Of a stretch of DNA of 64,000 bases, positions 24,221 through 59,991 are shown piece after piece (within the stretch, counting starts at the first letter, position 1; the number at the start of each line of letters is the position of its first letter). Source of the stretch: Sodiomyces alkalinus F11 (lineage: Eukaryota; Ascomycota; Sordariomycetes; Glomerellales; Plectosphaerellaceae); NCBI RefSeq assembly GCF_003711515.1, contig NW_021167081.1:2908483-2972482 (forward strand), in the 5' to 3' direction. The notes below the pieces were generated by a model. The model saw only the letters and a program-made list of their open reading frames with translations, did not search any database and was not told the DNA's origin. The translations under genes and the position numbers were made by a program.

Positions 24221-24263
24221 CTATGCCTTAATTAATATCCGGAAGAGTTGGGCTGGCTGAAGC
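24221..24263 (-). pseudogene. RRP46: Displaced native 3' end of RRP46 (inferred)
   Basis: A low-RIP stretch on the minus strand directly abutting the left LTR of copia-A. It begins GCTTCAGCC. GCTTC matches, 4 of 5 bases, the GCTTA that ends the RRP46 fragment at 53632-53636. Joining that fragment to this one keeps the RRP46 frame open until a TAG at 24223-24221. This supports an insertion of a copia element here followed by inversion. Whether these last codons were truly coding is inferred from frame continuity only. Confidence 0.5.
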
Positions 24264-24343
24264 TGTCGCACGTCAAATACGCACTTGGATGATTAACTTA
24301 GTAGAGCAGAAATCTCGTGTGTGTATATTGTGTTAAGTTATAT
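24264..24343 (-). repeat. Copia-A left (3') LTR, outer part
   Basis: TGTCGCACGT...CTCGTGTGTG: minus-orientation copia LTR start, cut after 80 bp by gypsy-2 and continued at 39138-39324. It keeps many CA/TG bases. Together the parts make about 263 bp. Confidence 0.88.
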
Positions 24344-24701
24344 TATAACCGCGTAGATGCGGTATTGGTGTGATGTCGGCAGCCGGTTATATAACCCCCC
24401 TTTTGAGGCTACGGGATCCGCCTCCTATATACATATTAAGGACAGGCTCTAGATATCCCTATCGAGGGACGATTATTTAATTATTATCCTCTTTTATAAT
24501 TACTTATTCTATATTTAAGGTATCTTTCTAGTTCGACTTACGTTATCCTAATCAGAATAATAACTACCGATCTACTTCTTCGCTAAAGGTTATAGCTGTG
24601 TTAGTTATATTTTAGTTATACATCGTGGTTTTACTACACTAACCTCTTTATCTGGTCTTTATCTTAATAATCTAGTGCTATTACGTCTTTATCCAGTTAT
24701 A
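24344..24701 (+). repeat. Gypsy-2 5' LTR
   Basis: 358 bp starting TATAACCGCGTAGATGCGG (ancestral TGTAACCGCG) and ending GTTATA (ancestral GTTACA), giving a TGTAAC/GTTACA terminal inverted repeat. It aligns throughout with 38780-39137. Confidence 0.9.
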
Positions 24702-24921
24702 ATATAGTGCTTAGAGACGGATTTATTCGGCGTCCCTAAAGTATTCTAACTCTAATCAGAGTAACGGAGGCGCTTAAGGGAGGTTCCGGCCCTCCTAAAC
24801 GAACTAACCGTTAATAACCCTAGAAGGATATAAAGATAACGACTAAGGAAGGACTTAACGCTTTAAGACCCAGGGGAGATTAATACGCCTATAGCGCACT
24901 ATAGATTTTAGATAAGGTATA

Positions 24922-25095
24922 AGAACCGTGTTCCACGGCGGTCCACTATTAGAACCGTTTTCTACGGCGGTCTACCGTTAGAACCGTATTCTATAGCGGT
25001 TTACCGTTAAAGCCGTGTTCTACGGCGGTCCACCGTTAGAACCGTGTTCCACGGCGGTCTGCTATTAGAACCGCGTTTTATAGTTACCGAGCCGA
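24922..25095 (+). repeat. Six copies of a 29-bp tandem repeat with internal hairpin
   Basis: Units start at 24922, 24951, 24980, 25009, 25038 and 25067, exactly 29 bases apart. The least altered unit contains CCGTGTTCCACGG, a 5-bp inverted repeat around TTC. Other units show CTACGG or CTATAG in place of CCACGG, so RIP changes can be read directly between copies. It lies in the gypsy-2 leader between LTR and gag, where packaging or promoter functions are expected. There are no unique spacers, so it is not a CRISPR array. Confidence 0.93.
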
Positions 25096-25469
25096 ATTAT
25101 CCCCGGGGTTCCCCCGTAGATATATTAGTTCGGGGCTTCGCCCCTTAGTTTAGAGAAGATATCTTTATTATACCCTATTTTCTATACCTAAAGGTCGCTA
25201 TTCCGAACCCTAGAAGCCCTAGGTCCGATAGTACTAACTGGCCAGAGATATGCCTGGATAGGGCATATTAGAGATTTACCCTAATAGATTTAGAAAAAGA
25301 AACGACTATATAGGTAAAATAGGAAGCACCTTTAGCACTTTTAATTATAAGACCCGCCTCCGCGGAGGTAGTAACTATAGGAATAGAAGAAGCCGATTAG
25401 ATCGTGATAGAGTTAGATTCCGGATATAGAATAGACTTAATAGGGGGCTTATAACCCCTACTACTAATT

Positions 25470-27980
25470 AAGATAGACTCTTGTATAATAGCGAAGAAAA
25501 GATAAGACCGCTAAGAGTAGCTTACCCGGATTAGCGTAATTAACCCCCCATAGACCTAATAAAAAGCTAATACCGAGTATAGGAGCGAAATAATAATACC
25601 TTATATAAGCACCCGATAATCTAGAAAAGACTTTTATAGACCCCGTAAGCAAGTTATAATACTTCTTTATAAGACTTAGCGCGTATTATTACTAATATTA
25701 ATATCCGTGAGTATAGCCCCTTTACTAATAGGTAATCTCCTAATCGTGGGAGGCCTTTTCCTTTAAGGTGAGTTAGAAAAGCTAAACCCCGAAGATAAAT
25801 ACTATAGAGTGAAATCTAGGACCGCTATTACCCTTTTATTAAAGACTTTATTACTCTTATTAAGATAAGATAATATATATACTAACCTGGCTAGTATCTA
25901 GAATACCTATAGAATCTTCGTATTAGACGATTAGTTCGAAGAACCTTTCCCTAAACGCCTTAACCCTATTATTATTATTCGCCTACCCCCTTATACTTAT
26001 ACTTAAAATACTATAGATACTTAGACTTAGCACCGCGAGCCTAACCCCGTTATCGTTATTAGCGACTCCGACGATAAGTCTCCCTGGCCGGCTATTCCCC
26101 TTATGCTTACGCCCGGTACTTCTACTACCCCTAATTAGGGGAACCACGATATCGGGGCTATAGTCTTACCTCCGCCCGCTCTTAGGCCGATTAGTACGTC
26201 TACCACGGCTCCGATAGCTATTTCGATAACTACCCCTAATACTACCTAGCCTATCCTTACTACCTAGCCTACCCCTAAACGTTAGGAGCCCCTTACTACC
26301 GCTAAAGACCTAATTAAGCTACTATAAGCCCTAATAAGCCGTGACTAAGAAATCACTATCGCCGAGGTCGTTAAAGCCCTACCCATTACTACTACTACGT
26401 TAAAAGCACTCCTAAATCCCTTTACTACTAGAGCTCCCCATTTTAGTAGTAAGTCTCTCTCTACGTTCCTTTAGTAGTACGATAACTATACTAAGCTTAA
26501 CCGCCTTAGTAAAGCCGATAAAATCACCTATATTAACCTATACACGGATATAGCTATTCGTCCCGCTATTAAACGCTTAGTTAAAAAGGTTTAAGCCGTT
26601 AACGGTAGTTAATCTAATCTAATCGAGAAGCTTATTAAAGAGTACTCTTATCTAGATCCTGACTACTAACTTAACTTCTCTTATAAGGTTTATTAGCTTC
26701 GGGTAAAATATAAGACGTATAGGATTTATACCGTTTATTAGGTTAGGGACTGATTATAGTAAATTACTATCTAGAAGGCTAAGGTAGAGCGGGTTTAAGG
26801 TACTTTTATCGAGGACTCCGAGCTTTACGGTATTATCCTTACTATTCTGTATAGGGATATCTATATATTTATCGCTAATAAGCTTAAGATCCGAGGCACC
26901 GACCCAAGAAGGATAGTTAAGAGCTATAGGCTACTTTCGGACCTACTACGCGAGTAGTCTACGGATATCTAGGAAGTAAAGGGTAAGCCTATAAATAAGG
27001 ATACCATATTAGGCGTGGCTAAGTCTAATTAGCCTAATAATACCGCTTTCCAGCCCACGATCTTAAGGCGGCCTATTATAGTCTAAGAGTCTATAGCCAC
27101 TTAATCGGATATAGATAAGCTCGCCGACCTCCTCGAGAAGTATACTATTTCCCTTATCTATAATAGAGCTAAAGGCGTTAGGGGTATTACTACTTCAGTG
27201 CTCGCCCTATCTAAGAGTATAGGCATCGAAAAGGTCTAAGCCCTCCTCGCTATAAAGTCTAATCTGAAGAACGCCTTTTACACCGTCCTTAAGCACGCCC
27301 CTTAGCCTACGATAACTACTTTAGTATACTGCGCTACCCTTAATTAGGCTAATAGTACCGCTTACTGGCCTAATAACGCTTAGTATACCGAGGAGATCTA
27401 CTACGAAGGACCCCGCCCTGGATATAATAACTAATATAATAATAACCGCCCGACCTAATAACACGATAACCGCCTAGGATAGTAAAGATGTGCCTAGAAT
27501 AACGGCTAGCCCCTACTAGCTCGCTACTACTACTACGGCTAAGAAGGGTATTATAGAGATAACTACCTTATCCTAATCTACGATAGCGCCTATAACCTTG
27601 TTAAGTAGTAGTTCCCCGAATATATAGTAATAGATTAGACCGGTACCTAGGTAGCCTGCCTAGAGAGCGAGCTACGGGTTAACTAGTATTAGCTATACCG
27701 ACGCCGTATACTATATTAGCTAGCTACTAAGCTCTATAGCCGATTTAAAGAGCTCGTAGACCTCTATATCAAGACCTTCTAGCCCGCCATCCTCCCCTAT
27801 AAGACTAAAGAGACTAATAGACTTATAATTAAGTACGTAGATAAGTAGGTATAGAAGTAGTAGGCCGGTTAGAGTAGTTAGGCTAACTAAGCTACTTAAG
27901 CCTTAAGAGTTACTAAGGTCACGGGATCTATGAATTTTATTACTATTAGAGTATATATTACGTCTATATCTCGATATACT
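25470..27980 (+). pseudogene. Gypsy-2 gag remnant
   Basis: Plus-strand frame with a Pro/Thr/Ser-rich N-terminal half (VIVISDSDDKSPWPAIPL near 26045; TTTAPIAISITTPNTT-like repeats). A helical capsid-like region follows (about 26330-27060: NLYTDIAIRPAIKRLVKKV; DPDYQLNFSYKVYQLRVKYK). A degraded zinc-knuckle region is at about 27515-27560, reading ARYYYGQEGYYRDNY, where Tyr occupies probable Cys/His positions and one ligand reads Arg. A Gln/Ala-rich region follows. Stops are nearly all TAG/TAA. Typical gag layout for a large gypsy element. Confidence 0.72.
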
Positions 27981-30764
27981 TTAACCGACCCCTTAGACCG
28001 TCTTTATACTACTAGAAGCGGGAGAATTAGTAAACCCACTCTAAGAGTAGCTAGTTCCCCTAATTAGACTATTTAATAGACCCTATCGACTCTAGAAAGC
28101 TCCTAAAGGGTTATAGAAATAGTTAATAACGCCGATATAGAAGATAGATTAGCCCCTAATTTAATAGCCCTTATATCTAGACCCGCTATTACCACGACTA
28201 TTACCCGGCCTACCTTATAGGCCTCGGCTTAGAAAGATACCCTTAATTTATTTATCTTAGAGGCTATTTTATGGAAAGTCCGCAAGAAAAGCCTAAAGCA
28301 CCTTTTAGAGATAAAGGTTAAGATTCCTATAGTTTACCTCCTCTTTACTAATAGAGGTATCCTTATAGACTACGAAAAGATACTATAGTTAATCGGTAGC
28401 TAAGTAAAGCCTTATAGAGTTATCTACTTAACCCCTAAAAAAGCCTTTTGTATAAACTCCTTACCCCTTAGACCTAAACGCCTTATATAGTTTACGAATA
28501 CTATAACTATAGCCTTCACGCCTAATAGTGCCCTATCTATTACGCCCGCCCTAATAATTAATAAACTAAAGCCTCCTACTATTTACGCTAAGTATATAAT
28601 ATTACGGGTTAGCCTAACTAAGCAAAAAGCCAAGGCCTACGCTATAAAGGATTATTTCTACGTAGTTATCGATATAGGAGCCGTCTTTAATATTATCCGG
28701 CTAAACCTTATAGAGAAGCTAGGATTACGGGGCCGTATAGGGAAAAGTAATATCGCGATTAAAGGAATTAACGATATAGATAGGGTAAACTATATAGGGT
28801 ATTAAGGGAAGCACCTCTAGGTCGGGGACTAGCACGGAAAGGTCTATTTTATGGTGATTAAGCGGATAGGACCCGGAATACTCTTTAGCCTATTATTCTT
28901 ACTCGATAGTTACGCCTTTTTTACCTATAAGGATAGATAGATCGATATAGACTTTACTTACGGGGATACCCGTATTATCGTTCTTATCACTAATAAGAAA
29001 TAGGTTAACGACCGCCCTTATAGATAAAGCTACCCTAAGTTTAAAAAGGATGAGAAACGCTAAGAGGAGGAGGATTTAATTAATTAAAGTATCGGATAGT
29101 AAGGGGAGGATAGCGTCCCTTATAGTTAGTCCGGGGCCGCTACCTTAATATCGAGTAACGATAGGACTAGTACTTCACCCGACTAAGGGGCGAAAAAGAA
29201 GGAGGAGATAAAGGAGGAGAAGGAGAAAGGCGATAGCGATATTTTCTTTTATTTAAATAATAAGGATACTACTACTTTAATCGCCTTCCTATTTACGGAG
29301 GAGGTAAAGCCTTTAACGTAGAGAATTTATATAGCCTTAAGGCCGATACTACGAAACTAGGGCCGAGGATATAAAAGGTGTGTCGCGGAGGCTCCCTATA
29401 TACTAACTACGACTATATAATAATAACTCATTCACACTAACCACTTATCTTTTTCGACTTTTCTATACTACTATTAGCCTAATCACCCTAATAGCCTCTT
29501 AGTCTTATATTTTCGGAAGAACCGGATAACGTAGGATAATTCCTAGGTAAGAGCGCTCGAGGCTTTAAAGAAAGAGGAGGATAATATCACTAATATAGCC
29601 GCGGTTACGACGAAAAGGCTATAGCACCTAAAGAGGAGGAAATCCTAGGATCTTAGTAAAGAAGTATACTATCCCCCTAATCCCGGAGGAGTCTTTACTA
29701 TATAAAAGCCTAAGGCTCTTAAGGTTTACCCTCTTAACGATATTCTATCTAATAGAAATATCCCTAATAAAGACCCCTACTAGAAGAAAAGTATCCTCGT
29801 AGAAATTAAAGAGGAAGATTAGGAGCTAGAAGATAAGCGGTTCGTTAGCCTAATTATACGAAAGTTTTCTAAATTTATACCTCGTTCGTGCTTTATAGGA
29901 GCTTCTAATAAAGGTCCTCCTAAACCGCGAGATAGCTATTACGTAGGATTAGACTAAGTACGGCCGCCTCGATAAACGGGTAGCTCCTTTATAGAAGATT
30001 TAGGCTGTTCCTTATAAGGTCTAGTAGGCGAAGGGGATCCTTATCCCTAAAGCTCTAGAGTCTATAGTTGTGTAGATAATAAAGGACCGCCTTAAGAAAG
30101 GTATAATTAAGGAGAGCTACGTAGCCTATTATAACCCTTTATTCCTAGGTAAGAAGAAGGACGGTAATATACGGCTTATTAACGTAGCCACTAAGCTTAA
30201 CGTAATAACCCTTTAAGATACCTTTATACCGCCTAAGGCCGACGAGTTCTCCGAGGATTTCGCTATATATAAGCTTATATCCCTCTTAGACCTTTTCTCC
30301 GGCTATAATTAGATTACCCTTAACGAGGAGTCTCGAGATCTAACTATTTTTACGACTATTATTAGACTCTTTAGGATATATACCCTTCCTTAGGGGGCTA
30401 CTAATTTAGCAGTCTAGTTTATACGTATTATAACCCATTTCCTTTACCACTTTATTCCTTAGTGCTATAGACCCTTTATTAACGATATTATAGTAAAAGA
30501 ACCGATAACCACCTATAAGAATACCCTAATTAGGCCTCGAATTCGCCGTTGTATAGCTAAGTATATTACTTATATCGATAAAATACTTCTTAACGTGGAG
30601 CTAGTTGAAGGTATTATCGGAGGTATCAAAAGCTAGTAGTATTAGAAAGTAACTATTATTATAGGCTACGTCTACGGTACTCATAGTTATTCCCCTAAGT
30701 AGGCTAAGATAGCGAAGGTCTAAGAGTAGGAAAGGTATAGTACGGTCTCTAATATGTATTCGTT

Positions 30765-30769
30765 CCTCG
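30765..30769. repeat. Left TSD of solo copia LTR (CCTCG)
   Basis: CCTCG is repeated exactly at 31044-31048, flanking the LTR. Confidence 0.93.
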
Positions 30770-31043
30770 TGTCGTATAGGCAGGACCATGACATGGTCTA
30801 TAGGGGATCCAGGGGGGATCCACTCCCTGACTAAAGGCTTCGGACCTCGGGTATTAGGATATAATAGGGGCGGATACCGGAAAAGACCGGATAGGATCTA
30901 AATAATATAGTACCCATAACAGAGTCTTCACCACCTAAAGTAAGGGTATAAGAGACTTATATAGATGTAACCTCATATAATACACACACACGAGATTTCT
31001 GCTCTACTAAGTTGATTATCCAAGTGCTATTTAATGTGCGATA
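30770..31043 (+). repeat. Solo LTR of the copia-A/B family inside gypsy-2
   Basis: 274 bp starting TGTCGTATAGGCAGG and ending GTGCGATA. It carries the longer (A-right/B-right) LTR variant with the GGACCTCGGG block. It is less RIP-mutated than surrounding gypsy-2. Perfect 5-bp TSD. It must have arisen after gypsy-2 inserted, so this copia family was active or recombining late. Confidence 0.92.
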
Positions 31044-33330
31044 CCTCGGTCTCGCTACTCTTTACCGAGTCTGGATTTATAAGTTTGTTATTATCGCTAG
31101 ACCCCTAACCGACCTACTACGGAAGAATACTGCCTTTAAGTAGGATGAGCCTTAATAACACGCTATAAACGCCCTTAAGAAGGCCTTTACCACTACCCCT
31201 ATCATAATCACTATTTAATATAGCGAAGGCGTAGGAGTTATCTACGTTATCGTTAATACTAGTATAGATAGATAGGGTAGAATACTTAATAAGTACGTTA
31301 AGGATAAAAAAGCCGTGGCACGGTATAAAAGCGGTCGCTAGTCTTTTACGGAAAGGGTCTATAATACTAGTAAGCTACAACTAAGGGGAGTCCTAAAGAC
31401 CCTTCGGCGCTTATATAACTACCTTTATAGGGTTTACTTTATCCTTAAGACCGATACATAAGCCCTCTTATATTTAGTTAAAAGGATTTACTACTAATCT
31501 CTTTAGTACCCTAATTACCTAATAGCTTACTTAGATCCGGCTTTTCGACTTCGACGATAAGTGTATTAAAGGATCTAAGAATACTATAGCCGATAGACTC
31601 TCCCGGATACCCGGAATACTCTTTAATTAGACTAATAACGATACCGAGGGAGACCTAAACGACTTCGTGGACGATAGAATCTTCCTTACGGAAGCCGAGA
31701 AGCAGTTCCATAACCCTACCCTAGCTAACGATATCCTCGATATGGACCTTACCTAGAGTTAGCTTTCCCGATAAATAGCCACCTTTTTAATAACCTTTCG
31801 TGTGCCTAAAGGAATAAATCCTAAGGAAGCCCGTAGAGTTAAAGATAGGGCTACCCGTGTATTCCTTAAGGATAGACTATTATAGACCCGAGTAACTAAG
31901 GCCGATTTAACCCCTAAACGCTAGATAGATAATAAGGATACCTAGGTTAACCTAATTAGGAGAGCCAACGATAAATCCGGATACCGAGGAAGGTAAAGGA
32001 CTTATTATCGCCTCGCCGCTAATTACTTCTAGGATAATATCTATAAAAGCGTTTAGAGGTTTATTAAGTTCTATTCCGAATACTAAGCCCGTTATAGCCG
32101 TTCTTAGGAGGACCCCTTAATCTTAATAAGCCTACCTAAAACCGCCCTCCCTTTTACTTAGGTTAGCCTAAACATTTAATATCTTTAAGGGTAGTATCTT
32201 ATAAAGGCCCGCTATATATTTATAGGTTAGGTCAAGGCTCGACTACTAAACAAGAATACGTCTAAGGCTATTACCTTATTCCTATAGGAAGATATAATCT
32301 ATAGGTATAGGCTTTATATAATCCTCCTTATAGATAGAGGTCCTAAGAATAAGGGTTATACAATCGAGCTAAACCATCGCTATAAGGCTACTCGAAAGCT
32401 CGCCTCGGTCTATTACCCCTACACTAATAGCCTTAATAAGGTAGGGTATAAGGCCATTACCTATACTCTATCTATTTAGTCGAAGCTTCACCCTAAAGCC
32501 CTTTACGAGATCCTGCCGATAATCCTCTTCGCTAACCGTATAACGGTAAAAGCTTCTACTAGCTGTACCCCTTTCTTCCTTTTACACGGCTATAAGGCTA
32601 TTACCCCGATTAAGATAACCTACCTAACCTGAAGAGTATTAGACTAAGGCCGCGTTAAAACCCCTAAGGATAATATAATACTTTAGTGAAGGGCTTTTAC
32701 CTAGCTTAATACCGACCAACGTGCTACTATTACTATAATCACTAAATAATAAGGGCGATAGAGAGACTATATTAACGCTAGCCGTGCCCGGGTACTCCGT
32801 AAGTAAGGCTATAAGTTAAGGATCTTATACTAGTTAACGATACTAAGAAAGCTATCGATATAAGCTATAAGGCTAAGCTTAACTACTAACAGAATAGCCT
32901 ATATCGTATCCGGAAGGCTAATCACGATAAGGAGTCCTTTATCCTTAAGACTCTTACTAGGGAAGAACTAAAAAGAATTACTTTTACCACTAACCGCTTA
33001 AAGAAGTTTTACTAAAACGATAATAGGTATTAGGAGCCTAAGGACTAGACTATACTTAAATAAGACTATAGCGAGGAGCTTAGGATTATATACCCTACTC
33101 GAGGAGCGCTTATCACTAAAGAAGTCACCGAAGCACCCCTTTTACCTAATAAGGACCCTAAGGAAAATACTAGGGCCGAGGATAATATTAGTTCCCCTAA
33201 TTATATTATTAATAGTCTTTTACGCCGCTCCGAGAGACTAAGACAGTTATTAAGGGAGTATTATAAGAAGTTAGAGGAAGAGTTAAAAAAGATAAGGGAG
33301 TCTAGTACTCTTAAGGTATAGATTCTATAG

Positions 33331-34739
33331 CGCCTAGATTTTAACCCGAGTAAGTATAAGAATTATACTAACGAGCTATATTGTATTCCTTATTATCACT
33401 TTCCCTAATATCCTTTATTTTTAAAGCCTATACTCGCTAGGAGGCTAGTATATAGTCTTAGGGCCGTGGGTAAATAAAGCTAAGTCTTTTATCTACCCAG
33501 AGTCGCGATATACGCTAGTATAAAGGGCGTAAACCTATTAATAAATCTTCCTAACTACTACCCTAGTCCGTTTCTTTTTTAAACTTTTACCTTTATTACC
33601 CTAATTAGAAACACTATAAACCTATCTAGACTTATTTCCCCGACTAGAAGACTTTTCCCTATATTTATTATGTATTATATTTATAAGTAAGCCAAACTAT
33701 ATAGACGTTATAAAGATATCCAACTATATATACTCTTTTCTATAATAAGTATAGGTTTCTTTGATTATAATTTCGAATTCTTTACTTCTATTCCCCTAAT
33801 CACCGTATAATTTATCGGACCTAAGCTAAATTACACTTAGTTTAATATAAGCTACCTATTCTATAGAAAGGAGTTATAATCGGGAATAACTAATATAAGG
33901 ACGGTCACTAAGGGTATAATATAATCAAGAAAGATACCGTCAAAGGCTATAAGCCGTCAATAGTAAATCCCTTCTTTACTAACCCTAGTACTAGTAACTT
34001 ATTAAGTTATTACGTTATCGTAAAGGCCCGATTTTAGAAGTATAAGAGCCCTCTCCTTTCTACTACTTAAAGCCCCTTTTCCTAATCTCTATTACTAATC
34101 GCTCTCCCTATTACTAATATTATACCCTTATTCCCTTAACCACGCCTATATATATATTACCCTTAAACCTACTGTACGTAAGTTCCTTATCCAGAAAGAA
34201 AAGACTAATACGGTACCTATTACTAGAAAAGTAAGTTTAAGACACTAAGTTAACGGCGTTAAGAGCCCTGCTAGAAAACCCCCTAAAAAAGAATAATATA
34301 ATATCACGACGATAACGGCGATAATAATACTAAAAACCGGAAAATCCGGGGATTCCCTAGCTTTATTAGCCTAATTAAGCGACTACCGGTCGTTACCTAT
34401 AAATCTTATTCTTCTTATACGGCCTATAAAGTCTACTTATATAGAGTAGAAAACGGATTACTATAAAGAGAAGGAAAAAGAGAAGAAGATAAGCCACGAA
34501 GAAGACCTCCTTTTATACCTTTTTCCCCCTAACCCTATTATCTATTCCCCTAATTAGACCTATCACGAAGTTCTCGCGAAAAGAGTAAAAGCCCTGGTTA
34601 CTAGGGAACGTTATTTCTTAGAAATCCCGTTTATCTATTAGAGTTATATTATCTAGATAATTAACTATCTAATTCCCTTCCCTATAAGCGACCTAGTAAA
34701 CCACGCACCTATCCTTACCACCTATTCCCTTAATTATAA
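33331..34739 (+). other. Gypsy-2 interior after integrase, no firm gene
   Basis: RIP-mutated sequence downstream of the integrase tail. Weak plus-strand coding character appears in places (for example around 34150-34300), with a Lys/Glu-rich purine stretch at about 34440-34510. No domain was recognised and no element boundary found. Confidence 0.35.
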
Positions 34740-36000
34740 AACACCCCATTAAGTAAGTAACTTAGTTTCTAGGTTAGGGTCGCTTTTATAGTCAGCTTCC
34801 TCCGGGCCGTACTTCTCGGAAACCCGGCTCTAGATATAAGCCCCTTTAGGGAGCGGAATAGTCTACTAAATAACTATTTCCTCCCGGTTAGGCACCTCCT
34901 TAGCCTTACGAATAATATTATAATACCCGTCCACGGTCTTCATATATCGAGCTAGGAGTACTAGGATAAGTTTAAGTAAGCTATTATAAGCTTTAAAAGT
35001 CTGACCGCTATAAGCCTAGCGTATTTAGTAAGCGATTTCGTGGCCTATAACGGTTATATTTACTAGGAAAATACCGGTCTAAGGCGAGTAGATCGGGTAC
35101 TATTTATCGTTATATAAGGACTAAGGTAGTACTAAGTTATCCTTAGGGAGGGGATTATAGTATTTAAAGCCGGGGTAATTACTATTAGGCTAGTTAATCT
35201 TATACTTAGCCTACTAGAACTCCTTATAAAGGCAATTATCCAGGAACGTGTAAGTAGACTTATAGAATAAATAGTTAGCGTGGTCGGGGAAGCCTGGATT
35301 CTATAGTAGGGAAACGCACTTATAGAATAGGTATATAATCTTATTATCAACCCGATCTATTATAGCTATCTAGTATTCTTCGTAGTAGTAGCAGGGCACC
35401 TTATTACCTACGCTATATACCTATACGATAAGTGCTTTTGCGGTATAAGGCCTTACCACGATCTTTATAATATACTCTCTCTAAGGATCTATAAGGTCCT
35501 TAGCTATAAAGATACGATAACGGAATAAAGACGTCTTAAAGAAGTCGTGTATCTTCTTAAATAAAGACTATTCTATATCTCGGTTAGTAATAAGGTATCC
35601 TAAAACCGGTTTATAACGGTAAGCCGGGTATCTAAATTAACGACCGAAGATAGGAGGTTAAGCTTAACGTATAAAACGCCGCCCTTATTAGCCACTTCGA
35701 ACTAACTGATATAGGTATTAACCTTAGCACTAAAGTCAGTATCCCCTAATTAGGGTAACTATAAGAAACAGGGAAGCAAAACTTATAGTTATATCTATAG
35801 GCATTACCTAAATGTTATACTTATTAGGAGTACCCTTTATTAGACACGTTTTAGGCTAAAACCACGGAATAGGCTTAACGCACTCTTACCTCCTAATAGC
35901 CTTCTTACGTTTATACGGCTCTGCCTTATTTAATATTCTAATTATACACTTAGAGGCTATAGTATATATTTAAGAAGTTAAGAACTTATAGTGCTATCTA
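34740..36000 (-). pseudogene. Antisense Cys-containing accessory frame in gypsy-2
   Basis: A coherent minus-strand reading of about 400 codons. It includes SKCIIRILNKAEPYKRKKAI, PCYYYEEY, YLFYKCVSLLQNPGFPDHAN, NCLYKEF, YYNPLPKDNLVLPQSLYND, VNITVIGHEIAY and, at the C-terminal end, KAKEVPNREEIVIQQTIPLP and GAYIQSRVSEKYGPEEADYK. Many Tyr residues next to surviving Cys suggest a former Cys-rich (zinc-binding) region. Opposite orientation to gag-pol and position between pol and the 3' LTR recall the antisense frame of gypsy-1, though I see no direct sequence match. Family not recognised. Confidence 0.5.
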
Positions 36001-48049: not shown

Positions 48050-51000
48050 TACCCCCTCCGTGCACTCGTTATATTAAGATATATGCGGAAGATCTCGAAC
48101 TTTTATCGTGGGAGTACCTTCGTTATTCCGTCTACCGGTATAAGGCTCGTAGCTAAATAAACCACCCTGAAGGTCCCTTTACCATGCTCCTATTAAACCT
48201 ATAAGCGTCAAATATCTATATATCTAAGCCGGGTTTCGATCCTATAGCCGTTATCTACTATCAGCCTAATTATTTAAGTGTTATCGTAATTAATATCCTA
48301 AGGGGATTCGGGGTCAAAGCGTATCTCTGCGAATAGGCGCTTTAATCCTATCGTTTCCTTCGCGACTTACTCTAGAGCGAGTAGCTCTATTTTAGTTATA
48401 GATATAGTAACGGTTACTTACCTTATCATTTTCTATACTACTAGACCTCTCAATAAGCTAATAAGATAGCCTTATAAAGATTATCGTGTATCGATATCGT
48501 TAGTAAAAGAGGCGTTACTCGCGATTACTATAGCCTATAAACTAGTGCTCGATCCGTACTAAATCGAGAGGTCTCTAGTTATATATAAGTAACGGATAGC
48601 TTAGTCCGCTGCCTTATAATACTCCGGGGAGGGGTTTCTAAGAAAGCGGGAAAAGATAGATACTGTAAAGGCTATATTAGGACGTATTATAACTACTATA
48701 TATAGTAATAATCCGACCCTTTCCTAGTACGATTTAACCTCTTAAGCCGTGGTCTCGTCTTCTCTCTTCCGGTATTCTATAATAGGAATAGGAATCGCTA
48801 GGTATATATTCGTAGTATCTAAATTAAATCTAACTACGATCTTCTCGATATATAAGTCGTGACTAAGTAGAATCTTACGCCGGGAGCGATCACGCGTGAT
48901 CTTAATTCCTAGAAACTACTCTACATTACCTTTTCTAATACTTTAAACCTTTTCCTGATATCGTTAATAATTCTAAAGGCGTTTATAGCCGTGTTCGTAT
49001 AGAATATGACGAGGATATCGTCTATAAAGAAGATAATAAACGTGTCTTAAGCCGCTATATAACATAGATATAGCTCTTCTTTACTAGGCTTTATCCCTAG
49101 ATCCGATAACGTCGCTATAAAGGTCTAGACCTATAATCGAGGTGAATCTCGTAAGCCGTAAAGTACTTTATCTAGCTCTAAGTATTTATCTGGCTACTTA
49201 AACCTATCTAGAAGCTTATATATAACGGGCGTACCTATTCTATTCCTCTCGGCGTTAACGAAGGCGTTAACGATATCCAGTTACTTAATCTCTAGGTTAA
49301 ATTAAGCGGCTAAAGCTATAATAATACGAAACGACCTTAAAGCGAGCGTTACTGCGTAGATTCCCTTAATCGTTAAGCTTTCCTGGAGATTCCCTCGGAT
49401 ATATAGCCTTACCATATATCTCTTAAGATACCCGCCTTAGTCGAACTTATAGATAAATACCTATTTAAGTAAAAGAGGCTTAGACTTCGCCGATACCCTA
49501 TTAATTTCCCTTTATATACGTTTCTGAATTAGCTTATTAACCTCCTTCTACGCCGCTTCCTTAAACTAGTCGCGTATAGGATGGTTATAAAGCTCTCTCT
49601 AAGGCCTTAGTATAGCCTTTAGGTGGTCGTGATAAACCCTGCCGTCGAGTAAGGACTTCGGTTCCTCTGTTAGTTTCGAATAAGGTTTTATTTTTATATC
49701 GGCTACTCCGAATATCACTAAGTAAAAGGATAGGAGCCCCTATATCTTATCGTTATACACTTTTTATCAATTAGATAGGAAGAACGTATATGTTAAGGGT
49801 ATATCTGGCTCTACTACGTGCGTCCGTGGATTAATCCGAATAGTCTTCCCCTAAGCACGTTAATCTATAATTCGGGCGCTAACCCTTATTATATCCTTAA
49901 CCTATATACTCCGTTTACGTTAGTGCGTGGTCACCTTAGGATTATTAGTTCGAGATCTAGACGTTAAGGGCTAGTTAATACCGTGACCTGGATTAGGAGT
50001 AGCTAGTTCCCGTGCCTTAGTCTATATATTCCTCGCTCCTCCTTATTACTCCAGATTATCTATATTAAGATCTAGTATATATAGCTCTAGCGTGTTAATA
50101 GCAGCGTCTCCTTCGGGTACCGTAGTATATATAGACGATAGCTTAATTAAGAGTTCCTCCTATAGCTATGGCCCGGCGCCTTAGTCCTAGTTATTCCGGC
50201 TTTACGGATCAGGTATAGCGAATAGAGCTTAGAGGCCTATTAGCACGGGCGGTTCGGGTAGCCTATCGTTAGGACTATTAGTGGTTACATCGGCATTTAG
50301 TGGTTCCGGCGCCTCTAGAATAGTACTAGCTACTCCTACCCCCGAGTCTAAACCCGTAGACTCTACTTAATCTTTAGAAGGTGCGCTACTAGATAGGCCG
50401 GCGGGCGGTGCTACTTATAGGATAAATTCGGTATCTTTATCTTTATAGTCTTCGTAGGTTATAAGCTAGTTCCTGGGCTCCGGCTCCATAATCTACTCTA
50501 CTTCTTCGAGCTTCGAGTTATAAAATAACCGCTCGTTAAACTACACGTTACGCGTTATTATAACCTTCTAATACTACGACATCTATATCCTATAGATATT
50601 ATAGGTAATATATTCTATAAGATACCTAATATAGCCCCTAGGTTAAACCTTATATATCTTTCTCTCCCTTCTAGTCTCCCTATTCCTATCTAAGGGATAA
50701 GCGCGGTAACCGTAGGCATACATACCACTCTAATCTAGCCGTAGGTCGGCTGAATACTCTCTTATCTTAAGCGGCGCGTGCCTTTTAAACTATAAGTCTA
50801 GTACCTTAATAGGAGACTTCTAACCTAGGCGCTATAATAGAATTATATTATAAAGTTACGCTACCGCTCTTATACTCTCTGGCTATATAAAACCTAGAAT
50901 ACCTACGCCGTTTAGTATAGTGTTAGACTTTATAACGATAGCTTCGCCTGCCCTCTTAATAGCGCTATTTGGTTTTTAGGTATATAAAGGCGCGATCTTT

Positions 51001-53300
51001 ATATCGATACCCTTTATACTCGCCTATAGCTAGGTCCGCGAATCCCCTACTATATACACGATTAAAGGCTTATTATCACTACGTATCTTATAGACGTATA
51101 GATTAAACTAACGCGTAACCTATCTCTTAAACGCTTTAAGGGCGTTATAGACTATAACCCTATTTTTCGACACTAAAGGCAGTATATAAATCTAACCGCT
51201 ATACTCCTCCTTAATCATAAGGAGATAACTTATACTATTATAACTCTCCGGTAATTCCTATAAGTCCTAATAAATACGCTAGAACGGCCTAGGCGAGCGG
51301 TAATCTAATAGTCGACGAGACACGACCTAACGAACCTATATTCGAGCATAGGTCTTATACTTAATCCGCTTAATACCTTATATTAATATATTTCTAGCGT
51401 TACGAACTAGTGCTCGAAGAGCTTCTAGTCCTAGGTAGCCGGCCCTTAGATACTATAGCCTCTCTTCGTTAATATATAGATAACGGGAATCTCGAGATAG
51501 TCGAAATAGCTTCGGAAGCGGCGCTCTTATCGGTTAATCGATAGCTACTATTAGTATATAAATATAATCGTAGCTTACGGGAATCACGCCTTATAGTATT
51601 AGTTAAATATATGGGTAAAAAGAAAATGAGAATAAAGTTAGCTTATACTAAGGAATAATTATATTAAAGCGTTATAATAGCTTTAATAAAACCACGCTCT
51701 TATCCGCTATTCCGTATCGTAGTGAGTAGTTATATCCCGAATACTAGATCCTAACCTTATATAATAAAGCTTCCGAGATAATATTCGTGTAAAGTCCCTC
51801 TACCACGACGACGTCGTTAAGCTCTAAGTCGACTTTCGGGGTACCTAATAGTCTATTAAGAAGGCCCTTAAAGATCCGTTTACCTTTACCGATAATAGGG
51901 AATTCCGTGGTGCTGGATTTAATAGTACCGTCTATTAGGACGAAAGATCCGGGAATAAGCAGGTCGATTAAATTAACTAAGTATATCGCGCCGTAATTAT
52001 CTAAAAGGGTACTATATAAGAGCGGGTAAGCGCTAAATCATAGCGCCGCGTAGATACCGGGAACTTCCCCTATGTCGTAAATAAGGGTTAGGTCTAAGAT
52101 AGTTATAATAACCTTTAATGGATATCCGTTACCCTTATCGCTACTCTTACCGGCGCTTCCCTATCCCTTCTTTAATAGGGTTTCTTATAGGCTTTTCTAC
52201 TTTTATTACTATAGCTTTTTCCGGATTCGTTCGATATAATTATCGCTTATCTACACAGATAGCTACTACTCGTATTTACCTATAAGAGTATACTCCACTC
52301 TATTATAGAGCTCCGGTTTCCACGAATAGGTCCTATTATAGGGGTATTTATGCCCCTTACCCTTCCCTTTCTTCCCTTTTCCGTTATCGTCGTCTTTATC
52401 GGAGCGGTCGCCCAGGGTAGCGTAAACGCCGTGCTTGGTTCTATTAAGGCTAGGAGCGCTTATAATCGCGTTAAATTCGCGGCCGTATATCAGGATATTA
52501 TTAATTACTTTATCCTTATTCTCCTTACGGGTTAGTTCGTGGAACTTAGCCTCTACCTAAGCCGGGGTAAAACGCTACCTAACTACGACGAGGAAGTTAC
52601 GGATAGCTATAGAACCCTTAACGTCGTTTACTTTATACTAATAATAGCGCCGGATAAGAGTATTCCACTCTGTATACTACGCTACCACCTTCGTGTTAGC
52701 GTTTCGAGTATCCTAGAGGTGCTTATCGTATACTCGATAAATCTCCTTGGCTAAGAATAGTACGCTAGGAGTGAAGTATTTCTTTAATTCCTTTATCACT
52801 TATCATATCGTGAAGTAACGGTTTTATTTCCCCTTTTCGTAGTTAGGGTACTTCTTAATAGCTTCCTCGACGGCTTATTAATAGGTAGAGGTTTCGATAG
52901 TCGCTTTAAGTATATAATTAACTTTATTAAGTGCCTTAATCGATCGGGCGAGCTTTTAATTACGTGCTATAACCTTATAGCCTTCTAGCTTAGCGAGCTT
53001 AATTAATTCCGATATAGTAGGAGGGGTTAGCACCCCGTTAATAACCTAGGTATATTTTTCGCGTAGCTAGTCGATAGATATAGGCATAACATACTCGGGT
53101 CGGTCGTCTAGCTACTTCGGCCTATTAGGGTCGAGTAAGGCCTAGACCTCTATACCCTACGTATATAACTTAATATAGAAGGTCTAATCGGCCTCTTACT
53201 TAGTAGACTCTAGCCGCGGGATACCGAGCGCTGCGGCGGTGACTTTAAGCTTCGTGGACATAGTTTATAGTAAGGGTTTAGCGAATAAGGGCTTTTCTTA
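48050..53300 (-). pseudogene. Copia-C gag-pol remnant
   Basis: Right to left: gag about 53280-52000 (the open plus frames at 52350-52754 are its shadows). GAG-pre-integrase/protease is at about 51900-51500. Integrase is at about 51450-50780 (PLVSKNRVIVYNALKAFK, IRSDNKPLIVYIV, then KPNSAIKRAGEAIV with the catalytic Glu). A Ser/Pro/Glu linker is at about 50600-50000. RT is at about 49800-48900 with IDDILVIF at about 49005-49026. RNase H ends at about 48080 (IDIYDAYRFNRSMVKG, then VDGITKVLPR, the copia ADGLTK-type box). Stops are mostly TAG/TAA. Confidence 0.82.
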
Positions 53301-53404
53301 GCGAGAGAATAGGGTCTATAGATACTCCTTAATTAGCTACGGAAGCACACGCAAAATAAACGTAGATAATAGATTAGCAGGAAGTTACTAGTTACTGCTA
53401 CTAC

Positions 53405-53415
53405 CCGGGCTTATA
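53405..53415 (-). promoter_or_regulatory. Copia-C primer-binding site
   Basis: Complement of GGGCTTATAAC, abutting the 5' LTR with no gap. Same initiator-tRNA anticodon-loop sequence as in copia-A and copia-B. Confidence 0.75.
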
Positions 53416-53614
53416 ACTATTAGATTAACGGGCGTGTAATCCGGTCGGAGTATAGATACAGAAGATATATAATTATATTCGTCATATAAAAAAAAGGAAA
53501 AACAGGAAGGTATAGGTATTCTAAATATATCTACCCCTTTTCCAAAGAGGAATATAGGTCTAATAACAACTAATAGAAACACAGGAGACAGGCTCACGTG
53601 TTTTCAGTGCGACA
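53416..53614 (-). repeat. Copia-C 5' LTR, RIP-mutated
   Basis: 199 bp, TATTAGATTAACGGG...CAGTGCGACA. It aligns along its whole length with 46205-46401 but shows TG-to-TA and CA-to-TA changes at many sites. Confidence 0.92.
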
Positions 53615-53636: not shown

Positions 53637-53900
53637 TATCGCATAGGCACACGGACCACGACATAGTCTATAGGGGATCCAGGGGGGATCCACGCTATAA
53701 CTAAGGGCTTCCGATATAATAGGGGCAGATACCGGAAAAGACCGGATAGGATCTAAATAATATAGTACCTATCACAGAGTCTTTACCACCTAAATTAAGG
53801 GTATAAAAGACTTATAGAGATATCACTTAATATAATATCTATATATATAAGATTTCTGCTTTACGAAGTTAATTATCTAAGTGCTATTTAACGTATGATA
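53637..53900 (+). repeat. Copia-B left (5') LTR
   Basis: 264 bp, TATCGCATAGGCACACGGACC... to ACGTATGATA. It is the short variant: it has CACACGGACC and CACGCTATAACTAAGG, and it lacks the GGACCTCGGGCATC block. The same variant is found at the copia-A left LTR, not at copia-B's own right LTR. Confidence 0.92.
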
Positions 53901-53911
53901 GTTATAAGCCC
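53901..53911 (+). promoter_or_regulatory. Copia-B primer-binding site
   Basis: GTTATAAGCCC starts at the base after the LTR. It is complementary to the anticodon-loop part of initiator tRNA-Met, with a TG-to-TA change. Confidence 0.75.
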
Positions 53912-54179
53912 GGGTTATAACGCTTAAACGATAGATATTAATAAGGCTACTCTTATTCTACTATAAAAGTAATCACGTTTATATAAGCACTCTTAAATAA
54001 CTATTATCGACCTGATTAAAAAAATTAAGCACTTAATTAACCTACCGACCTACCTATTAATTAATTAATTAATCAATAAGTAAGTAAAGATATCTTTTAA
54101 TATATCCTATATCGAATAGAAGGCGGCCGCTATTACTCTTATTAACTGAAAGGATTAAGTAGTATAGGAGCGCGCTATA

Positions 54180-55470
54180 CGCGGTAAATCTACCTCCAAC
54201 TAGGATAACTATCTTAATCTAAAGCTAAGCGATAAGGAGGCTAACCCCTACCTCCTCCCTATACCTACGCCGACTAATATCCGTAAATATAAGGCCCTCG
54301 CCGTGGACCCTAACGCGGAGGAGGCCACGGCTACTATTATCACAGTTACTTTATCTTCTACTATCACGCTAAAAGGCGATAAGGACGCCGCGGACGCCGC
54401 CGCTACCACGGCTACTATAGCCGCCGGTAAGAAGAAGACGGCCGCCCGCCGGAAGGTTACGACTACGGCCGTAACGAAAGAACTAACGACTAAAACGCCC
54501 ACGTCTATTAATAACCTCTCTAAAAGGGGCGTATAGGCTACCTATAAGATCGCCGTGTATACTATAAAGAAAAGGCAGACTATAACGCGTAGTAAAAGGA
54601 GTTTAATAAGGTATACTCCTATATCGAAAAGACTATCTATACTATATTATATAGCCTCTTAGCCTAGCTATAAGACGATACTATAAAGAACCTATAGGCC
54701 TAGATTACTCTCCTATACGCGTACGTAGGACTAATACCTCTAGACCTCTATAAGGAAGCCCTAGTCCTATACCGATAATACACTATGCCTATAAAGGGTA
54801 TACCTAAGGATATAGACGCTTAGGTAGTAAGCTAGAAAATAGCGATAATATACTATAAATCTATAGGGGTTTTAGAGCTATTAAGCGTGGACTATTAGGC
54901 AGAAGACGTGTTAAAAGCTATTAGACCTATCGCCTAGGAATAGAGTAATAACTACTTAGTAAATAACTATAATACGATTCCGGAAAATAAGCTAACGATT
55001 AACGACTTCGTAAAGGCTCTACGTACAGTTCTTAGTAATATAAAGAGCCTATAATCCTCTACTATAAAACCTAGTGTCGGAAGAGGCACCTTTAATACCC
55101 TTAGGAACCTCCCCGATACTAAGGATACTACTAATAAGAAAGATAATAAGAAGCGTCCTTATAGCGATATATCCGTAAAGGCTATCCCTCCTATAACGAG
55201 GAGGCCTTATAAGATATATAAGAACCCCTATACTACTACTACCTATTAGTACGTAAGGCCGAATATACGCTCTTATACCTAGTATAGCCGTGAAGATATT
55301 ATAAAGGTCGTGGAAAAGAAGATATATATTTATAGTTTTAAAAGCCGTGTAGACACCGCGATATAGAAAAGGTAGGAAGTAATAGCTATTACCGCTAATA
55401 AGATAAAGGAAGTCTAGGAAGATTCACTCTATAATACTACGCCTATTATAACTACTATACCGTAATAATA
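54180..55470 (+). pseudogene. Copia-B gag remnant
   Basis: N-terminal part of the copia polyprotein. An Ala/Thr-rich start is still open at 54303-54536 (DPNAEEATATIITVTL, AADAAATTATIAAGKKKTAA). Next comes a helical gag-like region with many TAA/TAG at Gln/Trp sites. A basic segment follows near 55200-55400. Position directly after the PBS supports gag. Confidence 0.65.
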
Positions 55471-58400
55471 GAATTAGGGGTTTGCTACTCTGCCCGTAAG
55501 TATAGTTTTAAAAGACCTTTCTATTACCGCGAGTATACGGCTAGGCGTCCACCCCTCCTAAGATAAGGGGGTACCGCGCCCTTATACGACGATACTATTA
55601 AGATTATAAGTATAAGGAGTATCCTTATCTATTAACTAAGCTAAAGCACTATTATACTACGCTATCCTAAACTTGGGATTATTAATCCACGTCTTTAATA
55701 TTCGAGGTCGTTTTACGGCTATTAGACTACCCACGGATACTTTATCTTTATCCCTTTAGGTAGGTACTTATAAGGCTTGTATCCTTAAATACGGAGACGT
55801 TAAGCTACGTGTATAATCACCGTCGGGTATAAAAAGACTGCTACGCCTCCGTGATATCGTATACTATAAGAAATTTATCACTAATATCGTCTCGGAACGC
55901 CAGCTATACCTATAAGGTTACCGCTAGGATACCGTAAATATTACTATTATTAGCTCCGCCGATACCCGGCCTATCTATAAGCTACTAGATATCCACGGCC
56001 AGTATATAATTAAGCGCGCGGAAGCTATAGCCGCCACCGCGTTCGCGGTCTTAGTAAGACACCCCCGTGATAACCCGTATAGAAGATCACGATAACCGCG
56101 GTAACCGTAGAAGACTATAGTATAACGGTAGTATAAACACCTTGGCTATTACGGTACCGATGTTCTCGCGAAGATCGTTAACGCCACTTAGGGGGTAAAG
56201 ATAAAGGGACCACGTATATCGGGCTATAACGCGTATAGGTAGTCGTAAGTACCTACCTAGATCCGGCGGATACTATCCTTTTACCCGTTAAAGCCCGGAG
56301 AGGCCCTAGCTACTAATTTTCACGATCTAGAAGAGTCGGAATCGCTAGGCGGCCTATATAAGTCTATTATATTCGTTATAGACATGTATATAGGTTATAC
56401 GTAGGATTACTACTTATAGAAGAGACACTAAGGCTTTATCCTACACGCGTTAAAAGACGTTTTTACCCTGCTTAAGACCTAATTCGACGTTAGGCCACGC
56501 GTTCTACGGGCCGATTCCAAGATATTTTAGTACCTAGAAGTCGTTACTTTCCTCGCTACTAAGGGGTAAAGGGCTAGCCGTCGGCACTATACTTATAGGA
56601 TTAAAACGGTGTTATAGAACGGATTAAAGGTATTATTAAGAGAAGGGCGAAGGCTATAAGAATTAGAGCTAATCTGCCTATATCTATGTAGCCTATGATC
56701 TTTAAGACTACTCTATATCTATATAATAGGACGCTACGATATATTGACGACTAGCGAACGCTATATAAAGGCCTACGCGGCCATTAACCTAACCATACGC
56801 ACCTATAAGTATACGGCTATAAAGCCTTTATAAAAACGCGCGATACCTAAGCTAAAAGGAACCGCCTATAAAGGCTAAAACCGAAGGTATAGATCGGTTA
56901 TCACGTTAGATACTATTCCTTAAATAGCTTCCGCGTATAGCTACTATACCTAACGGATCTTATTACTATAAAAGATATAATCTTTAACGAAGAGAAGACT
57001 TTTAACGGCAGGATTAAAACGTTATAAGCTATAGCTTCCGCCGAGGAAATCGGGGAACGCCTATAATCTATCCCTATCACCTAATCTAGCGATACTATAA
57101 CCGCGAATAGGCTACTATTAAGGGGTATAGCCGTAGACGTATTAGATCTTAAGTCGGAAGACTCTAACACTGCCGCTATTATTACGGATAAAGGCGAGGC
57201 TATCGCTATTACTACGAGAGAGGCTACTGCTATTACTATAGACTATACCGTTATTACTACGGGTACCGCTATTACTACAGATACTGCTATTACTATAGGA
57301 GAAGACTATACCACCGCTATTACTGCGGGTAAAGGCGATAATACTGCTATTACTACGGAGGAGGCCACCGCTATTACTATAGGAGAGGCTAGCGTTATTA
57401 TTACGGACACCGATACTATTACGGACGCTCCGCGATTTAGCGCTACGAGGTTTAAACCGTTTCCCACGCCTTTAATATCCCCGGAAGATCCTGCGCGCGC
57501 GTTCCTTATAGCGTTAGCGGTAGTTACGGGCGTTAAGGTAAAAGGAGACGATAACCACTAATAAGTAGCCGCGGAAACCCCTAAGGGGTGCCTATCGCCC
57601 GTACGCCTATTAGCCGCGCGCCTATTACCCGCGCGCCTATCTATCGCGAGAAGTATTATAAGTATCTATAAGACCGAGAAGGTGCAGAATAATAACGCCT
57701 AGAAGGCGTTCTTTAACGCTAAAAGGACTTATAACCCTATACGTAGGAGGAAGTAAGCTATTAATAACGCTAACGTTATTAGCACTAGTATTATAGATCC
57801 CTCTCCCTCTAACGCCTCCTTATCGCGTCTAACCCGTAAGGATCTCCCGCCTCCGCTAAACCACTACCGCGATATACATCTCCACCCGTTACGGGAGCGG
57901 TGGTTATAGGCTAAGGGGGAATACCTTAAGGGGCACCGATAAACAGGATACTAGTAGGAGGTAGGCGGTGATTAGGCTAATAAGTAATAAGTCCTCGCCT
58001 ATAGATAGGTATACACCTATAAATTTAATAAGGAGGGCACCCTCCTTAAGTATATGGCACGCCTTATAGTATAAGGGGATTAATAAAAACGGTCAGAGAC
58101 TAAAGATAACTACGCCGCCACGCTAGCCTCGCGGTCCTTCCGTATACTAATAGCGATCGCCGCACGATTTAATCTAGAAATAAGGCAGTTTAATACCGTT
58201 AACGCTTTCGTTAACGCTAGCCTTAAAGAAGAGGTATTTATAAAGATACCGTAAGGCTGCGAAGTACTAGGTAAGGTCCTACTACTACAGAACGCCCTCT
58301 TCGGCTTAAGGGTATCGCCACTACTATAATAAGTGGAACTTAGCGGCACGCTATAGAAAATAGGATTCACGGCCATGCCTAATAACCCCTAGATTATAAT

Positions 58401-59480
58401 CCGCGTCGGTTTAATCCTATTCGTCTACGTTAATAATATCGGACTTATATATTATAGAGACTATAAGACTAATACCGATAACCGTAAGGCCGCCCTTATG
58501 CGAAGCTATAGGCTATTAGGAGGCGAAGAAATCCGTTAGTTCTTAGGAATTAAGGTCCTAAGGGATAGAGCCACCCGTAGGTTATAGCTATTATAATCCT
58601 CCTACGTAGAGAACATCGCGGTTAAATACTACGTAGATATACTCTGCCGAAAACCACTAAAGGTCCTATTATCTATAGAGCCGTTAATACTACGCGACGG
58701 TATACACGCGTTAATTCCCGACGTCCGTTAGTATTAGGGTACAATCGGTTCTATTATATATACCGCTATTGTGATAAGACCCGATATCGTGTTCGCCTAT
58801 TCGAAGCTTTTCTATTATAATATTATCCCCTCCTCTAACCACCTTAAAAGGGCTTAATAAGTGCTACTATTCCTATACTATATACGACACCACTACCTGG
58901 AATTCGGCGGGGATAGGCTCTTTCTAATAGTAAGCGACGCGTCCTTTAGGGATAATCCAGACCGTAAGAGTTTATAAGGATATACGATAAAGCTTTTCGG
59001 GGGAACCGTTAACTAGAAGACGGGTAAGTAACCGACGGTCACGATATCGTTAACGGAATCGGAACTACTCGCTCTTATAGAGGCAGCTAAAAAGACGTTA
59101 TTCGTTAGCCGGATATTAAGGGATTTAGAGCTTCGGTTAGACTAATAGTAACTATAACTATACTACGATAATCAGCAGACTATTAACCTCGTTAATAAGA
59201 AGGCATAACGCCTACGAATAAGGCTACGGTATATCGATATATATAACTAGTAGGCGCGCCAGTCAGTATAATAAGGTCTCTTTAAGGTTATATACGTTAA
59301 CACGAAGGAGATAATCGCGGACGGTTTAACGAAGGCACTACTAGAGGCGGGCATTAAACGACTATAATAATAGCTTAATTTAACGGATCAAAAGGATCGT
59401 ATCGGATACTTAAAACAACTACACAAAGAGATCGAACGCGCTAAAGCCGCAGCGATAATAAGGGCCCCCGCGGGCGTAGT
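55471..59480 (+). pseudogene. Copia-B pol remnant: protease, integrase, RT, RNase H
   Basis: Protease-like region about 55600-55930 (KLRV, LRLRDIVYYKKFITNIVSER). GAG-pre-integrase about 56090-56200 (YKHLGYYGTDVLAKIVNAT). Integrase about 56260-56850 (IIFVIDMYIGYT, RPRVLRADSKIF). Thr/Ala/Ile repeat linker about 57175-57440. RT about 57900-58760, whose catalytic box near 58417-58440 reads YVNNIGLIYYRD, both Asp codons being AAT. The copia-A copy keeps YVDD. RNase H about 58900-59370 (RDNPDRKSLQGYTIKLFGG, TESELLALIEAAKKTLF, IIADGLTKALLEAG). A charged tail ends near 59480. Inactive. Confidence 0.85.
57175..57440 (+). repeat. Degenerate TAITT-type codon repeats in the copia-B linker
   Basis: Repeated ACCGCTATTACTAC/ACTGCTATTACTA units, alternating with acidic GAGGAGGCC/GGAGAAGAC blocks, encode Thr-Ala-Ile-Thr-Thr repeats between integrase and RT. 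Copia-A has a shorter version of the array (about 41540-41700), so the array length changes between copies. Confidence 0.7.
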
Positions 59481-59708
59481 AGATCCGATGGATATAGATC
59501 CGATTAAGCAGATCCGGCCAATCAGGATCGAGGAACCAATTAAGATAGATTTAAATTAAACGGTTAAATAGCGCGGATTCAGATTCTTTTATAAGGGCGG
59601 TTTTCCCTTAACTATTAATTGTACGATAGAAGTTAAGAGTATTTAGTTTAAACCGAAGCCTCTAATTAGTCAGTTAACCTCGGAAGACCCACCTTAACTA
59701 CGGGGGTG
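59481..59708 (+). other. Copia-B 3' tail and polypurine tract
   Basis: End of the polyprotein tail (DPMDIDPIKQIRPIRIEEP near 59485-59545) and an untranslated stretch, with the tract ACGGGGGTG immediately before the LTR start at 59709. CA/TG content is higher here than in the rest of copia-B. Confidence 0.6.
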
Positions 59709-59983
59709 TGTCGTATAGGCAGGACCACGACGTGGTCTATAGGAGATCTAGGGGGGATCCACTCTCTAACTAAGGGCTTCGGACCTCGGGCATCAGGATA
59801 TAACAGGGGCGGATACCGGCAAAGACCGGATAGGATCCAAATAATATAGTACCCATAACAGAGTCTTCACCACCTAAATTAAGGGCATAAAGAACTCATA
59901 CGGAGATAACTTAACAAAATACACACACACGAGATTTCTGCTCTACTAAGTGAATTATACAGGTGCCTATTTTACGTGCGATA
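59709..59983 (+). repeat. Copia-B right (3') LTR
   Basis: 275 bp, TGTCGTATAGGCAGGACC... to ACGTGCGATA. Long variant, same length as the copia-A right LTR. The following bases ATTAT pair with ATTGT (complement of 45171-45175) flanking copia-A's right LTR. Confidence 0.92.
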
Positions 59984-59991
59984 ATTATATA

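Follow-up and report, generated by a model that had tools for sequence, protein, structure and literature searches.

A probable inversion by exchange between two RIP-decayed LTR retrotransposons in Sodiomyces alkalinus F11

Inversion 2z3 of Drosophila buzzatii was generated by the transposon Galileo; ectopic recombination is held responsible, and the target is described as a single copy in the non-inverted chromosomes (PMC2775673). In yeast, Ty1-mediated rearrangements arise by recombination between dispersed LTR retrotransposons, as we propose for the locus described here (PMC3102749, PMC9879454). Disparate ends are reported for 7 of 150 full crapaud copies in Podospora anserina, for which conversion or ectopic recombination has been proposed (PMC10787394). 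The locus described here lies in the soda-lake fungus Sodiomyces alkalinus F11, where two copies of one LTR-retrotransposon family, A and B, lie in opposite orientation at two breakpoints. With a probability of roughly 85%, exchange with crossover between them inverted the intervening segment, with the gene RRP46 and the element copia-C inside, and left both elements chimeric. The ancestral elements are called E1 and E2. The basis of this reading, all of it read from the sequence, comprises unlike LTRs, crosswise-matching flanks, a near-identical tract, a split repeat and a decodable gene tail. Our literature search, thin in its coverage of subscription journals, found no paper on this inversion among those listed.

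Terminal repeats and target duplications

The window, i.e., the whole stretch of 64,000 nucleotides analysed (C3:2908483-2972482), belongs to a genome of 43.4 Mb in 22 contigs. Most of it has a composition like that left by repeat-induced point mutation (RIP), with TA/AT of 1.71 and (CA+TG)/(AC+GT) of 0.32, in contrast to 0.79 and 1.26 in RRP46. A (minus strand, 24264-45170) and B (plus strand, 53637-59983) belong to a family with terminal repeats, TG..CA ends, 5-bp duplications and a purine tract before the 3' LTR, as in LTR retrotransposons. The family ends are TGTCG..TGCGACA, RIP-altered in many copies, and the tract preceding the 3' LTRs is G-rich. Seven short open frames, of which four lie within A or B, had no Pfam match; "copia" is a label taken from the earlier note. 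A later insertion, bounded by direct repeats at 24341-24640 and 38777-39076 and a 4-bp duplication ATAT, interrupts A's 3' LTR. Elsewhere in the window, a pair of 300-bp direct repeats (2020-2319 and 8814-9113; 92% identity, about 6.8 kb between them) probably represents the LTRs of a further element. The parts of the locus are as follows.

24259..24263, minus: target duplication outside A's 3' LTR, GCTTC; matches B's 5' flank at 4/5 and A's own 5' flank at 1/5
24264..24343, minus: outer piece of A's 3' LTR (A-left)
24344..39137, no strand assigned: nested LTR element inside A's 3' LTR, a later insertion; duplication ATAT/ATAT
39142..39324, minus: inner piece of A's 3' LTR
39325..44895, minus: interior of A, RIP-decayed
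44896..45170, minus: A's 5' LTR (A-right), 275 bp, with a 16-bp block
45171..45175, minus: target duplication outside A's 5' LTR, ATTGT; matches B's 3' flank at 4/5
46205..53614, minus: copia-C, within the segment read as flipped; duplication CCTAA/TCTAA
53620..53636, plus: host piece separating copia-C from B, ending in B's 5' target duplication GCTTA (53632-53636)
53637..53900, plus: B's 5' LTR (B-left), 264 bp, without the 16-bp block
53901..59708, plus: interior of B, RIP-decayed
59709..59983, plus: B's 3' LTR (B-right), 275 bp, with the 16-bp block
59984..59988, plus: target duplication outside B's 3' LTR, ATTAT, which doubles as the next bases of repeat R

The LTR classes of A and B are distributed crosswise. 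An earlier note on this DNA had given LTR lengths of 263 (A-left), 275 (A-right), 264 (B-left) and 275 bp (B-right), all reproduced exactly, and its crosswise variants hold: of the four LTRs, only A-right and B-right contain the 16-bp block. The same division is shown by an extra ACG and by the GCTAT/TCYCT transversions. The outer end of A-left reads TATACGG, correcting the CACACGG given earlier. The flanks agree with the note's crosswise scheme, matching at only 1/5 within A and 1/5 within B and at 4/5 in both crosswise comparisons; the target duplications are exchanged between the elements, with imperfect matches. The difference between GCTTC and GCTTA, which the note had paired, is a transversion and not a RIP-like change. 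Among non-partner flank pairs, a 4/5 match was reached by 4 of 182.

Unlike LTRs with unmatched flanks are not the rule in this family. As controls, 20 other copies were taken whole from 38 other scored interior matches (305 first-look candidates); both LTRs were visible in 14, and exclusion of L025 and L035, in each of which one LTR is disturbed by another insertion, left 12. Nine of the 12 retain their own flanks at 4/5 or 5/5, and in all nine the two LTRs belong to one class, judged for L026 from two remaining markers because a deletion covers the block in its 5' LTR. Both solo LTRs in the window have flanks matching at 5/5. The remaining controls, L030, L031 and L043, have own flanks matching at 1-2/5, with LTRs alike in L030 and L043 and unlike in L031. 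L031 (C1:40660-48012) combines a short-class 5' LTR with a medium-class 3' LTR between the unmatched flanks CCTAG/ATTCC, and is a further candidate recombinant. L030 and L043 (C17), inverted and about 8 kb apart, were considered as a second inversion on the strength of one crosswise match (TACTG/TACTA, 4/5); the pair was dropped, as the other flank is unmatched and no identical tract is present. Across L025-L044, A and B, RIP seems to fade towards the outer edge: counted by eye and excluding L035_5 from the 5' set, CGCA near the outer start is kept in 8 of 19 5' LTRs and, at the corresponding inner place, in none of 17 3' LTRs.

LTR relationships support one crosswise pair better than the other. 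Among 38 LTRs compared by transversions and indels, with RIP-type changes set aside and L035_5 excluded, A 5' and B 3' are mutual nearest neighbours, the rank of A 5' for B 3' being tied with L030 3' and L035 3'. The LTRs of A rank each other only 28 and 36 out of 37, and those of B 35 and 34. A 3' and B 5' share a class, yet are only rank 24 and 14 neighbours out of 37. One private transversion common to A 5' and B 3' is a weak marker, as private changes are common to 12 of the 703 LTR pairs, 7 of which are neither partners nor A 5'/B 3'. In the likelihood tree, from which L035_5 and L026_5 were excluded, A 5' and B 3' are sisters with moderate support (82/89), and the free tree places B 5' with L034 5' and A 3' with L026 3'. 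The topology test rejects A's own pair (p-AU 0.00785), disfavours without rejecting B's own pair (p-AU 0.119), and neither shows nor rejects a clade of A 3' and B 5' (p-AU 0.334). The LTR pairs of L034 and L027, whose duplications match, are likewise missed by the free tree; thus, RIP blurs the LTR tree. The original pairs proposed in the earlier note therefore fare differently: A-right/B-right is moderately supported, whereas A-left/B-left is not positively joined by the tree. The tree that the note had named as contrary evidence, joining A-left to A-right and B-left to B-right, was not obtained. Chimerism of both elements is favoured by the crosswise classes and by the nearest-neighbour relation, with ties, of A 5' and B 3', but the tree does not join A 3' with B 5' and the interiors reveal no plain change of subfamily at the tract.

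The near-identical tract

The scan of A against B for a crossover point, which the earlier note had proposed, found a tract in which A 43036 to 41806 corresponds to B 55789 to 57019.

41806..43036, minus: exchange or conversion tract in A (1231 bp, differing from B at one position)
55789..57019, plus: exchange or conversion tract in B

Outside the tract, the identity of A to B in 150-column bins is about 75-94%, and the sole difference within it is a transversion. In the same region each of the 20 other copies differs by about 11-14% from A and from B. In an all-against-all comparison of 22 copies (the 20 plus A and B), no other near-identical stretch between different loci exceeded 185 bp, at 96%. 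A stretch common to A and B alone and lying mid-element in both is as expected of a conversion tract at a crossover. The absence of transitions says that RIP would have been hardly active there since the exchange, with only 36 CA/TG sites left in the tract. Meiotic conversion tracts without and with crossover are given as 539 and 432 bp in Zymoseptoria, 950 and 284 bp in Neurospora, and 1681 and 1841 bp in yeast; the 1231 bp of A and B exceed the first two sets of values and fall short of those of yeast (PMC10294615).

The interiors beside the tract carry little subfamily signal. By transversion distance to A minus distance to B, with copies below 60% segment coverage excluded (19 sequences in the 3' half and 22 in the other segments), grouping by LTR class reveals no consistent closeness to A or to B across the 5' half. 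Across the 3' half there is a weak tendency in the predicted direction, with means of about -0.0016 for 6 short-class and +0.0016 for 4 medium-class copies. The direction of C-to-T and G-to-A differences, compared by element half, gave no asymmetry.

Within a single locus, the all-against-all comparison had one exception, 490 bp at 100% in L032 (C2; 5422-5911 and 6862-7351). This copy sits in an inverted copy of its own family and has at least 490 bp of perfect stretch in common with it, starting where it inserted and reaching the limit of the DNA examined; the opposite flank is 89% identical. L032 likely represents a second conversion between close inverted copies.

Repeat R, RRP46 and the old junctions

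The old junctions are legible indirectly, one through other copies of a repeat, R, and the other through the RRP46 frame read against an orthologue. Their components are as follows.

24221..24262, minus: relic of the C-terminal tail of RRP46, immediately beyond the far end of A, reading LQPAQLFRILIKA then stop
45171..45202, minus: head of repeat R, its first 32 bp, beside A and severed from the body
45362..46226, plus: RRP46, three exons (45362-45548, 45639-45796, 45888-46226), borders read by eye
59984..60600, plus: body of repeat R, beside B, starting where the head is cut off

Repeat R, present in high copy number, is cut in the window and contiguous elsewhere. A query from 59984 on gave 39 other scored places out of 268 first-look candidates, and in the R copies L059, L041 and L030 the sequence upstream of ATTAT continues as TCAGAAYAYAAATAAGGTAYRCGGA. 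This head is absent beside B's 5' flank and lies, reversed, directly to the right of A; 45171-45202 is the window's best site for each of these three uninterrupted copies, with 23-24 matches of 29. Genome-wide, a 30-mer of the head has 145 matches at three mismatches or fewer, and a reversed control pattern has 0. The head stands directly upstream, uninterrupted, at 27 or more of the 39 other scored places, a lower bound since 100 of the 145 head places were among the matches listed and several of the 12 headless places match R only from a later position. With the head beside A, the body beside B and the two contiguous in other copies, E1 would have inserted 27-32 bp into R, whose parts were then separated as an inversion predicts. 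Upstream of RRP46, 45196-45283 belongs to a short repeat of 80-90 bp, which may be a MITE and has 39 or more other copies (304 first-look candidates).

RRP46 has a displaced tail. The gene in the window is 100% identical to the annotated S. alkalinus F11 protein of 227 aa, and lacks the C-terminal tail conserved in its relatives. The copia-C LTR provides the end of the gene (46205-46226) and encodes about the last seven residues of the annotated protein. When the target duplications of copia-C and E2 are counted once each, the frame runs through 46204, continues in 53620-53631 and then in the reverse complement from 24263, where it yields the relic before a stop. Against the tail of the RRP46 protein of S. 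alcalophilus JCM 7366, the relic scores 30 (QLFRILIKA*GA / QLLRTLVKAKTA). A score of 30 or more occurs in 4 of 5118 equal-size background windows, and none of the other 23 flank-and-frame readings exceeds 19 against the same tail. Tails from other relatives also score no more than 19 against the relic, and a tail profile run over the whole window did not place it among its 12 best sites; in the control for that profile, 6 of 20 random windows contain a site equal to the window's best. The weight therefore rests on place, frame and the same-genus match. A genome search with the S. alcalophilus protein as query did not find a second RRP46, the only other match being weak (E 0.079).

Proposed history, rival explanations and known systems

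The claim that exchange between inverted copies caused an inversion is supported by three lines absent from the earlier note, the near-identical tract, the split repeat R and an RRP46 frame continuing outside A, and RRP46 and copia-C lie inside the flipped segment as that note had stated. Its limits for that segment, 45171-53636, are too narrow. An exchange within the tract implies a segment reaching from tract to tract, at minimum 43037-55788 (12.75 kb) and at maximum 41806-57019 (15.2 kb), i.e., 12.8-15.2 kb.

We infer the following order of events. E1 would have inserted into the start of R, upstream of RRP46, and E2, in opposite orientation, into the last coding exon of RRP46, so that the two flanked most of the gene. 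Copia-C would have inserted 12 bp before the E2 site, and E1 and E2 would have decayed by RIP. Recombination within the interiors, inside 41806-43036 / 55789-57019, would later have left the 1231-bp conversion tract and a crossover that inverted the intervening segment. Present A would then consist of E1's 5' end and E2's 3' end, and B of the reverse. Copia-C and the element nested in A's LTR may each predate or postdate the inversion. We further infer that one event produced both the tract and the crossover and that the chromosome itself has the orientation seen in the assembly.

A variant inside this explanation, whose odds are not to be added to its own, makes the exchange stepwise or repeated: one or more non-crossover conversions made the tract, and a later crossover flipped the segment, perhaps more than once. 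Strong suppression of exchange is expected between copies that are about 85% identical; a tract made identical beforehand would ease the crossover, and the perfect stretch of L032 and its inverted host copy suggests that conversion alone may occur. A conversion followed later by a crossover agrees with the observations no less than one event does. A single event nevertheless accounts for everything, and we regard the stepwise course as possible but doubtful. That the inverted tract is an active switch, by which the segment carrying the sole RRP46 gene found keeps flipping within the species, seems unlikely. If it were one, repeated exchange would keep the tract identical despite a divergence of about 11-14% in the other compared copies, and RIP, regarded as protective against exchange between repeats, would fail to protect where inverted copies lie close.

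The main rival, given one assembly of one strain, is a misassembly in which the exchange had no crossover and the assembler was misrouted through the inverted 1231-bp tract, so that the flip exists in the assembly only. A near-identical inverted repeat is the expected site of such an error, which would reproduce the crosswise LTRs, the flanks, the split repeat and the displaced tail alike, and N runs, either gaps or withheld stretches, occur in 5 of the 64 fetched loci. The window, however, is without any N, 1.2 kb is short relative to long reads or jumping libraries, and a genuine conversion between A and B would still be required; we consider such an error improbable. A further rival does without an inversion and has A and B undergo LTR conversion or chimeric insertion independently. 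The unlike LTRs and unmatched flanks of L031 and the 7 of 150 crapaud copies (PMC10787394) are reminiscent of it, but it is very improbable, for it leaves the split R, the RRP46 tail and the long tract confined to A and B among the copies compared unexplained and requires two chance 4/5 flank matches, at about (4/182) squared.

The probable inversion with crossover is unusually completely recorded: one genome shows the tract, the duplications that were exchanged, LTR ends that differ within each element and the two old junctions. It indicates recombination between copies that RIP had already decayed and that were no more than about 85% identical, and so bears on whether RIP shields fungal genomes against rearrangement between repeats. 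The exosome gene RRP46, for which no second copy was found, would have lost its C-terminal tail to insertions and then been flipped away from it.

The mechanism is already known and carries the Galileo signature. As described for 2z3 (PMC2775673), A and B are opposite-orientation copies at the breakpoints, with exchanged target duplications and, probably, chimeric structure. Galileo is a transposon, and non-inverted lines were sequenced in that account, whereas A and B are LTR retrotransposons bounding about 13-15 kb in one assembly; their old junctions are read from other repeat copies and a gene, and a conversion tract still marks the exchange. The yeast Ty1 cases are experimental events between highly similar elements, whereas A and B would record a natural event between RIP-decayed copies about 85% identical. 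The crapaud elements resemble A and B in being RIP-affected LTR retrotransposons with two LTRs from different subfamilies; their cause is left open in that description, whereas for A and B the partner, the exchange point and the structural result are identified (PMC10787394). At the A/B locus, this known mechanism is joined by two further features, an exchange tract that is still preserved and partners decayed by RIP.
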